49,073 bases of DNA from contig JAVHLY010000022.1 in NCBI GenBank assembly GCA_031081585.1, positions 1-49,073 of the forward strand. Direction: 5' to 3'. Of this stretch, positions 11,533 through 26,262 are shown in pieces; positions within the stretch are counted from its first letter, which is position 1; each line of letters opens with the position of its first letter. A model generated the notes under the pieces. It searched no databases. It saw only the letters and a program-made list of their open reading frames with translations, and was not told where the DNA came from. A program made the translations under genes and the position numbers. This DNA comes from Armatimonadota bacterium. Lineage in GTDB: Bacteria > Sysuimicrobiota > Sysuimicrobiia > Sysuimicrobiales > Humicultoraceae.

Positions 11533-11597
11533 TGAGCTCGGCGCCTGGGGTCTCGTCTACGCGACCTCGGCCAGCGGGCATAGGGAGGGTGGGACCA

Positions 11598-11683
11598 GCC
11601 TCCGACAAGGGCAACCTCGAAGCGATTCGAGCGCGCAAAGCCGCGGGTCTCGCATCACGAGATGGCCGGGCTGCCGAAGAGGC
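11598..11683 (+). promoter_or_regulatory. c-di-GMP-I (GEMM) riboswitch
   Basis: The core of the GEMM-I aptamer is complete. P1 is GCCTC (11598-11602) with GAGGC (11679-11683). The ACAAGGGCAACC strand is followed by a CTCGAA/TTCGAG hairpin closed by the GNRA tetraloop GCGA. The invariant GCGCAAAGCC comes next, then the GGGTCTCG/CGAGAT P3 helix and GGCCGGGCTGCCGA. It sits 32 bases before the start of a 49-residue membrane protein gene and should make that gene respond to cyclic di-GMP. Confidence 0.9.
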
Positions 11684-11691
11684 CACCGGGA

Positions 11692-11715
11692 GGCGTCCCA
11701 GGGGAGGGTGACGCC
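11692..11715 (+). promoter_or_regulatory. Shine-Dalgarno-trapping hairpin, probable riboswitch expression platform
   Basis: GGCGTC (11692-11697) pairs exactly with GACGCC (11710-11715), directly in front of the GTG at 11716. The loop holds the ribosome-binding site GGGGAGGG. With no U tract following, this suggests control of translation initiation by the aptamer just upstream. Confidence 0.55.
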
Positions 11716-11865
11716 GTGCTGGAACGATCCCGGTCCGAGGTCCAGGCCGACGCCGCCTCGCTGCGCGAGGAGCTCGAGTTCGGACTCAAGGCCGTGGGGG
11801 TGGCGGTGGGCAGCGTGGCCGCGCTATGGGCGGCGCTGCAGGGAATGAAGCTGCTGGGACTCTAG
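11716..11865 (+). CDS. 49-residue single-helix membrane protein under c-di-GMP riboswitch control
   Basis: A small protein beginning VLERSRSEVQADAASLREEL, a charged amphipathic helix, followed by a glycine/alanine-rich transmembrane helix (about residues 24-48, KAVGVAVGSVAALWAALQGM). No family is recognised. The GTG start is supported by GGGGAGGG eight bases upstream; the frame is open back to 11662, but that would run into the riboswitch. Its position right behind a c-di-GMP-I aptamer and a start-site hairpin argues that it is a real, regulated gene. The likely topology is N-in with a short C-terminus. A role in motility, surface attachment or envelope control would fit c-di-GMP output but is inference. 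Confidence 0.72.
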   Translation: MLERSRSEVQADAASLREELEFGLKAVGVAVGSVAALWAALQGMKLLGL

Positions 11866-11889
11866 GCGCCCGGCCGGCCAGCGTCCGGC

Positions 11890-11934
11890 CGCTCACCGGC
11901 CGGAGGTCACACGCCCGCTCACCGGCCGGAGGTC
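11890..11934. repeat. 19-bp direct repeat upstream of thrC
   Basis: CGCTCACCGGCCGGAGGTC occurs at 11890-11908 and again, identical, at 11916-11934 (26-base period). Each copy carries the self-complementary CCGGCCGG. It lies 84 bases before the thrC start and could be an operator or a recent duplication. Confidence 0.75.
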
Positions 11935-12017
11935 GCACCTGCGCGAGGGAAGGGGGCGGCGGCGCTCCCTTCCGCGTTCTGCGGGGATTTCCGCGTCGGC
12001 GGGCGAAGGGAAGCACC

Positions 12018-13073
12018 ATGGGCTGGCCGGGCGTCATCGAAGCCTACCGCGACTTCCTCCCCGTCTCATCCCGGACCCCGGTCATCACGCTGCTGGAGGG
12101 GAATACGCCGCTGGTGCCCTCGACCCGCCTGGGGCCGCATCTGGGCCTGCGCCTCTTCTTCAAAGTGGAAGGCGCCAACCCGACCGGATCCTTCAAGGAC
12201 CGGGGGATGACGGTCGCTGTCTCCCGTGCGCTGGAAAGGGGTGCCCGCGGAGTCCTCTGCGCCTCCACCGGAAATACGGCCGCTTCGGCGGCCGCCTACG
12301 CGGCCCGAGCGAGGCTGCCCTGTCTGGTCCTGCTGCCGGCCGAGGGGGTCGCCGTCGGCAAGCTGGCCCAGGTCGCGGCGCACGGGGCGCGCCTCGTGCT
12401 GGTGCAGGCGGGGTTCGACGCGGCGATGGCGGCCGTGCGGGCCCTGGCCGCCGAGCTCGCCGTTGCGGTGGTGAACTCGCTCAACCCCGACCGGCTGGCG
12501 GGCCAGCAGACAGCGGCCTTCGAGCTCTGCGAGGCCCTGGAGGGGGCCCCGGACGTCGTCGTCCTTCCGGTGGGCAACGCGGGGAACATCACCGCCTACT
12601 GGCAGGGGTTCCGGGCCTTTCAGGCGGCGGGCCGTATCGCCACGCTCCCGCGGATGGTGGGCGTGCAGGCCGAGGGTGCCGCCCCCCTGGTGCGGGGCGA
12701 GGCCGTCCCGCAACCGGAGACGGTGGCCAGCGCCATCCGGATCGGCCATCCCGTCAGCTGGGACGGTGCGCGGCGGGCGGTGGCCGAGAGCGGCGGGCAG
12801 GTGCTCGCAGTGAGCGACGGGGCCATCCTGCAGGCGCAGCGCGCTTTGGCCGAGGAGGAAGGCCTGCTGGTGGAACCGGCCTCCGCCGCCGCCTACGCGG
12901 GGGTGGAGCGCCTGGCTGTCAGCGGGCTGGCGCGCGGGAGCCTCGTCGTCTGCGTCCTCACCGGCCACGGCCTCAAGGACCCCGACGTCCTCCGGCGCGG
13001 CGTCGCGCTGCCCGAGCCGGTCGCGCCGGACCTGGACACCCTGCGCCAGGTCCTGACCCGCCACCTGGCGTAG
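12018..13073 (+). CDS. thrC: Threonine synthase
   Basis: A 351-residue PLP enzyme converting O-phospho-L-homoserine to threonine. The N-terminal VITLLEGNTPLVPSTRLG block, the PLP lysine in GANPTGSFKDRGM (Lys60), STGNTAASAAAYAARA and the phosphate-cradle loop GNAGNITAYWQGF match the bacterial/archaeal short-form threonine synthase. The start ATG follows GAAGGGAAG. The frame is open far upstream but without a better site. No other threonine genes are near, so it appears to stand alone behind the 19-bp repeats. A related PLP fold-type II enzyme such as threonine dehydratase is less likely given the EGNTPL motif. Confidence 0.92.
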   Translation: MGWPGVIEAYRDFLPVSSRTPVITLLEGNTPLVPSTRLGPHLGLRLFFKVEGANPTGSFKDRGMTVAVSRALERGARGVLCASTGNTAASAAAYAARARLPCLVLLPAEGVAVGKLAQVAAHGARLVLVQAGFDAAMAAVRALAAELAVAVVNSLNPDRLAGQQTAAFELCEALEGAPDVVVLPVGNAGNITAYWQGFRAFQAAGRIATLPRMVGVQAEGAAPLVRGEAVPQPETVASAIRIGHPVSWDGARRAVAESGGQVLAVSDGAILQAQRALAEEEGLLVEPASAAAYAGVERLAVSGLARGSLVVCVLTGHGLKDPDVLRRGVALPEPVAPDLDTLRQVLTRHLA

Positions 13074-26011: not shown

Positions 26012-26164
26012 CTGGGGTCACTTCGCCCGCGGGCGGCGAAACCCTCCGGCCGCCTGCGTCCGGTTCGCCCCACCGGCCCGGGCGCTGGGTCCCGCGCGGC
26101 CTTCGTGCCGTCTACCGGCGTCCCCATCCGGGCACAAGAGGGCTGAAAGCCTAGCCGGGCAAGA

Positions 26165-26262
26165 CCCGCGACAAAGGCACGCCGTCCGCGAGGACGGTTC
26201 GCAAAGCCACGGGGGTGGGCGCCCAGGTGCCGGGCCCCCACCCAGCCGGGCTGCCGAACGGG
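26165..26262 (+). promoter_or_regulatory. c-di-GMP-I (GEMM) riboswitch of the pilin operon
   Basis: A second complete GEMM-I aptamer. CCCG (26165-26168) and CGGG (26259-26262) close it. ACAAAGGCACGCC is followed by the CCGTCC/GGACGG hairpin with GNRA loop GCGA. The invariant CGCAAAGCCACGGG, a long GC-rich P3 and CCAGCCGGGCTGCCGA then follow. It lies 47 bases before the first pilin gene. C-di-GMP control of type IV pilin-like genes through GEMM elements is known in other bacteria, so this is probably the operon's switch. Confidence 0.92.

Follow-up and report, generated by a model that had tools for sequence, protein, structure and literature searches.

A c-di-GMP-I riboswitch upstream of a predicted 49-residue membrane protein in a Sysuimicrobiales bacterium

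Results

The window, a stretch of 49,073 nucleotides from an Armatimonadota bacterium of the order Sysuimicrobiales (GenBank assembly GCA_031081585.1, contig JAVHLY010000022.1), contains a c-di-GMP-I (GEMM-I) riboswitch aptamer directly upstream of a small gene that probably encodes a single-helix membrane protein of 49 residues. All the features of this locus described below lie on the forward strand. The computational evidence establishes the aptamer, a promoter motif in the company of pilus genes, and the coding character of the small frame. Our reading of the whole locus, to which we give an even chance, is a translational c-di-GMP-I OFF switch that acts on a small membrane protein belonging to the type IV pilus programme. 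The locus brings an orphan membrane peptide, under a switch open to testing, into the c-di-GMP regulon of an order of bacteria that has been little studied.

The aptamer and its class

The cmscan match spans 11601-11679, and P1, composed of GCCUC (11598-11602) and GAGGC (11679-11683), extends it to 11598-11683. An earlier reading made from the letters alone (hereafter the sequence-only reading) had placed a GEMM-I aptamer exactly between these borders. The covariance search agrees with it: the score for RF01051 is 56.4 bits, well above the gathering threshold of 35. The three ligand-contacting bases G20, A47 and C92, numbered as in the Vibrio Vc2 structure, are all present when read off the alignment. 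These conserved contacts suggest that the ligand is c-di-GMP.

The score for RF03167 (c-di-GMP-I-GGC) is higher, 60.3 bits, with a margin of 1.3 bits over the gathering threshold of 59. Position 47, where the RF03167 consensus has G, is A in this aptamer (CGCAAAGCC), and A47 and C92 are found in all 69 aptamers of the family. The label c-di-GMP-I-GGC was rejected because the G of the variant is absent. With A at position 47, the ordinary name c-di-GMP-I is right despite the higher RF03167 score.

Covariance searches revealed seven c-di-GMP-I aptamers in this genome, and 43 of the 46 genomes searched (this one and 42 others of the order) contain the class. Position 20 is G in nearly all aptamers of the family; it is A in L122 and L155, and C in L164, which belongs to the same genome as the window. 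A at this position favours 3',3'-cGAMP. The second riboswitch in the window is also c-di-GMP-I (26166-26258, 45.5 bits). A GTCTA/GGGCA promoter pair lies upstream of it, and the genes that follow form a run with prepilin N-terminal motifs.

A promoter motif also found before type IV pilus genes

Upstream of the aptamer, GTCTA (11555-11559) and GGGCATA (11576-11582) are separated by a 16-base spacer. This pair, at 11555-11582, implies an RNA start at about 11588-11592. No sigma-70 promoter was observed near the 11598-11683 element.

The motif GTCTA-N15/16-GGGCA was read from the aligned sequences upstream of the 69 family aptamers, and for counting, within 90 bases of an aptamer, one letter of the first box was allowed to be T or A (G[TA]CTA). 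It precedes 20 of the 69, where the remainder of this DNA would lead one to expect 0.11, and five of the seven aptamers in this genome. The two aptamers of the window are among these five (pairs at 11555-11580 and 26110-26134). As the motif was taken from the aptamer set itself, sites outside that set weigh more. In this genome, the pair also precedes pilT (L181), a pilB-like gene with MshEN (L189) and a gene for a PAS-domain protein (L195). In sister genomes, the genes that follow the pair are pilT (L215), pilA-like pilins (L217 and L223) and pseudopilin-like genes (L208 and L214), all named directly from their translated sequences. Among the 23 GEMM elements from other families of the order, none is preceded by the pair, which indicates that it is specific to this family. 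It is probable that the promoter pair marks a type IV pilus regulon common to pilus genes and GEMM riboswitches.

GTCTA-N15/16-GGGCA resembles GTTTA-N-GGGTA, the kind of promoter used by sigma factors of the SigB/SigF type, and a factor of this type probably reads the pair. A gene for a SigB/SigF/SigG-like factor (L166) is located behind another GEMM element of this genome, and its product is the natural candidate reader. The promoter motif connects c-di-GMP riboswitches in the order with pilus genes and with this candidate sigma factor.

The 49-residue protein

The small gene (11716-11865) consists of 49 codons (11716-11862) with a GTG start and a stop at 11863-11865. Its codon score, 0.353, is at the mean of the true genes in the window (0.35) and is reached by 0.2% of wrong-frame 49-codon windows. 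The five other frames of the same DNA score from -0.16 to -1.06. Among 112 frames of comparable length, 0.9% have a hydropathy peak as high as its 1.69. AlphaFold2, run on the single sequence, predicts one helix covering residues 2-47 with a mean pLDDT of 90.9. This model fits a protein whose N-terminal half is polar and whose C-terminal half spans the membrane, and is silent on function.

The searches of Pfam, NCBIfam and PHROGs showed no family above threshold, which bears out the earlier remark that the protein matches no recognized family. PDB sequences contained nothing significant. DUF5955 (PF19380) was rejected, with 15.9 bits against the Pfam cut-off of 27.1 (E = 0.018). In a whole-genome search of 61 genomes, including 43 of the order, no homologue was found. 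The sequence-only reading had proposed to look for the protein behind GEMM elements of relatives and had named a lack of conservation there as a result that would speak against it; the 43 order genomes, a set which includes no other species of the host's genus, gave that result. As a positive control, the 33-residue GEMM-linked membrane protein of G005 was recovered by the same search, indicating that a conserved protein of such size is visible to it. The 49-residue protein is therefore genus-restricted or fast-diverging.

The protein had also been proposed to be a direct c-di-GMP effector. It shows no sign of nucleotide binding, and the pilus-regulon promoter is a better lead to its function. 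The neighbouring genes, pcm and a PALP-enzyme gene, have no homologue near the other GEMM elements of the family. Two copies of a 20-bp direct repeat, CCGCTCACCGGCCGGAGGTC, were seen by eye at 11889-11935, downstream of the small gene and ahead of the enzyme gene that starts at 12018; the repeat finder did not report them.

Tiny membrane proteins are easily missed in annotation. A riboswitch together with a promoter offers separate evidence for telling which of them are genuine and to which systems they belong. The orphan peptide and the pilus-regulon promoter are the mildly exciting parts of this locus.

The leader and the predicted helix exchange

The distance between the aptamer and the GTG codon is 32 bases. 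The Shine-Dalgarno sequence GGGGAGGG (11701-11708), found in the sequence and the ORF scan, has its GGAGG 8 bases before the start. It is placed in the 12-base loop of a hairpin at 11692-11715, whose 6-bp arms, GGCGUC (11692-11697) and GACGCC (11710-11715), pair perfectly, and the GUG codon adjoins at 11716. This hairpin had been described in the sequence-only reading, with correct coordinates. A perfect 6-bp stem ending on the last base of the leader appears in 2.3% of dinucleotide shuffles of the leader. The total folding energy is ordinary, 25% of the shuffles folding as well, and thus the case for a switch rests on a specific exchange of helices.

Two other helices were predicted by folding. 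The 5' strand of an alternative helix (11590-11603) consists of UGGGAC, a 2-base bulge and GCCUCC, and shares 11598-11602 with P1. Its 3' strand, GGAGGCGUCCCA (11689-11700), shares bases with the 5' arm of the hairpin that holds the Shine-Dalgarno sequence. The helix has 12 pairs and a predicted energy of -21.2 kcal/mol, and is equalled in 1.9% of leader shuffles and 7% of shuffles of the 5' strand. Because it takes a strand from each, the 5' strand from P1 and the 5' arm from the hairpin, neither structure can form alongside it. Its 5' edge coincides with the RNA start implied by the promoter. The other is a 7-bp enclosing helix (11685-11734) between ACCGGGA (11685-11691) and UCCCGGU (11728-11734), which can cover the ribosome site. 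It forms once the RNA runs past 11734 and is dominant in many set-ups.

When the aptamer was enforced, the predicted probability of the hairpin rose from 0.01-0.13 to 0.97 for RNAs starting at 11586-11590 and ending near 11722. For RNAs starting at 11592-11594, the hairpin is likely even without enforcement. The predicted cost of opening 11701-11728 increased with the aptamer formed in nearly all the combinations of ends folded. In the four set-ups compared with shuffled leaders, the increase was 2.7-4.6 kcal/mol, and it was equalled in 0.7%, 8%, 3.3% and 0 of 60 shuffled leaders, respectively. No intrinsic terminator was found in or after the leader, up to 12018. The predictions support a translational OFF switch, in which formation of the aptamer would make the ribosome site harder to open. 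As the folds vary with the RNA ends chosen, this direction is a prediction of moderate confidence. OFF is the most common direction among riboswitches (PMC11477304). The proposal in the sequence-only reading that the aptamer switches translation stands in that the leader can alter access to the ribosome site by folding; the switching itself is a prediction.

Other small proteins linked to GEMM elements in the order

A membrane protein of 29-33 residues with the pattern MRWK...GKW (L102, L107 and L199; also L200 and L202) was observed in several genera from three families of the order. The 33-residue member from G005 is matched in G001 and G014, and more weakly in G023 and G017; GEMM-I is upstream in G001, G005 and G014. 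The gene that follows is DUF5317 by family search in G001 and looks alike in G005 and G017. In G001, DUF5317 is followed by a MASE9-HD_5 protein. This c-di-GMP-linked small protein is conserved and apparently undescribed.

In three genomes of the family (L136, L137 and L167), GEMM-I is followed by a terminator-like hairpin and then by a frame of 84-94 residues with ...WEFWAGVLLAG... at its start, possibly another small membrane protein. At L140 (G006:C24), a hydrophobic frame of 63 residues starts about 9 nt after the aptamer, and the 3' strand of P1 is its Shine-Dalgarno sequence. A response regulator with an HD_5 domain is encoded downstream of it.

Discussion

Proposed mechanism

Under the reading outlined at the start, transcription would begin near 11590 from the GTCTA-N16-GGGCATA promoter. 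When c-di-GMP is absent, the 5' end of the RNA would pair with 11689-11700 and block the Shine-Dalgarno hairpin, and the 49-residue protein would be made. When c-di-GMP is present, P1 of the aptamer would form and free 11689-11700. The hairpin, or the larger enclosing helix, could then shut the ribosome site and reduce translation. The exchange of the 11590-11603/11689-11700 helix for P1 and the hairpin is a folding prediction. The company of the promoter suggests a role for the protein in pilus or surface behaviour. Several results weigh against this reading: no homologue of the protein was found in the order, the folds depend on the RNA ends chosen, the leader as a whole folds no better than its shuffles, and the promoter pair is missing before the 23 GEMM elements of other families.

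A bolder version can be put forward only tentatively, and we consider it rather unlikely. In this version, the peptide would be a membrane protein, new and restricted to its lineage, that regulates type IV pili and is made only at low c-di-GMP. It would be one of several unrelated tiny membrane proteins which the order has independently placed under c-di-GMP-I riboswitches.

Alternative explanations

The direction of the switch could be the opposite, with a hairpin stabilized by the ligand presenting the Shine-Dalgarno sequence in its loop and the alternative or enclosing helix representing the inhibited state. With the aptamer enforced, 11701-11706 is indeed unpaired with a predicted probability of about 0.7-1.0 (starts 11585-11596, end 11720). 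However, the stem of the hairpin abuts the start codon, and the ribosome site as a whole is costlier to open with the aptamer in nearly all set-ups. An ON switch is accordingly unlikely, although it is the strongest of the alternatives. Slightly less probable is that the 49-residue frame is not a target, or not a gene, and that the riboswitch either acts through read-through on the PALP enzyme gene (12018-13073) or has lost its target and is left as an orphan. The failure to find a homologue in the order and the lack of a terminator before 12018 are compatible with this explanation. Against it, the codon score equals that of true genes and exceeds 99.8% of wrong-frame stretches, the Shine-Dalgarno sequence is good, and the promoter keeps the company of pilus genes. 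Nor is there a PALP homologue behind any of the other 68 GEMM elements of the family.

Two further explanations concern the nature of the protein and of the ligand. The protein could be the hydrophobic toxin in a toxin-antitoxin pair of type I, with c-di-GMP setting its level of expression; the small size and the single helix agree with this general type. Two c-di-GMP-I riboswitches of C. difficile precede type I antitoxin RNAs (PMC7699646), but it is the antitoxin RNA and not the toxin that follows the riboswitch there. No toxin family in Pfam, NCBIfam or PHROGs matched the protein. We regard a toxin as improbable. The least probable explanation by our estimate, and a very improbable one, is that the aptamer belongs to the c-di-GMP-I-GGC variant class and binds another ligand. 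The order of the two covariance scores is in its favour, but the better score barely passes its cut-off, and A replaces G at position 47 both here and throughout the family. The OFF switch on the small membrane protein is the preferred reading.

Comparison with known systems

The element resembles c-di-GMP-I (RF01051) in score, helices, the GNRA loop on the first hairpin, contact bases and pilus/surface context. It differs in having the 49-residue frame as its probable target and in a platform that would be translational rather than a terminator. Its likeness to c-di-GMP-I-GGC (RF03167) is limited to an overall score above the gathering threshold, as G47 of the variant is missing. Within the order, the MRWK...GKW protein has the same arrangement, being a tiny single-helix membrane protein encoded behind GEMM-I. 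Its sequence is unrelated to that of the 49-residue protein, and unlike the latter it is conserved across families and adjoins DUF5317.

In C. difficile, c-di-GMP-I riboswitches are located before the small hypothetical proteins CD1424, CD1981.2, CD1990.3, CD2309 and CD3368.2 (PMC11477304), and others serve flagellar and antitoxin genes (PMC11477304, PMC7699646). Most of these elements act by transcription termination (PMC7699646), whereas the leader in the window shows no terminator. The likeness is one of arrangement, a c-di-GMP-I element directly before an uncharacterized small protein. Given these precedents, the element in the window belongs to a kind already known: it is plausibly a familiar switch acting on a new target, the 49-residue gene, and does not amount to a novel type of system.
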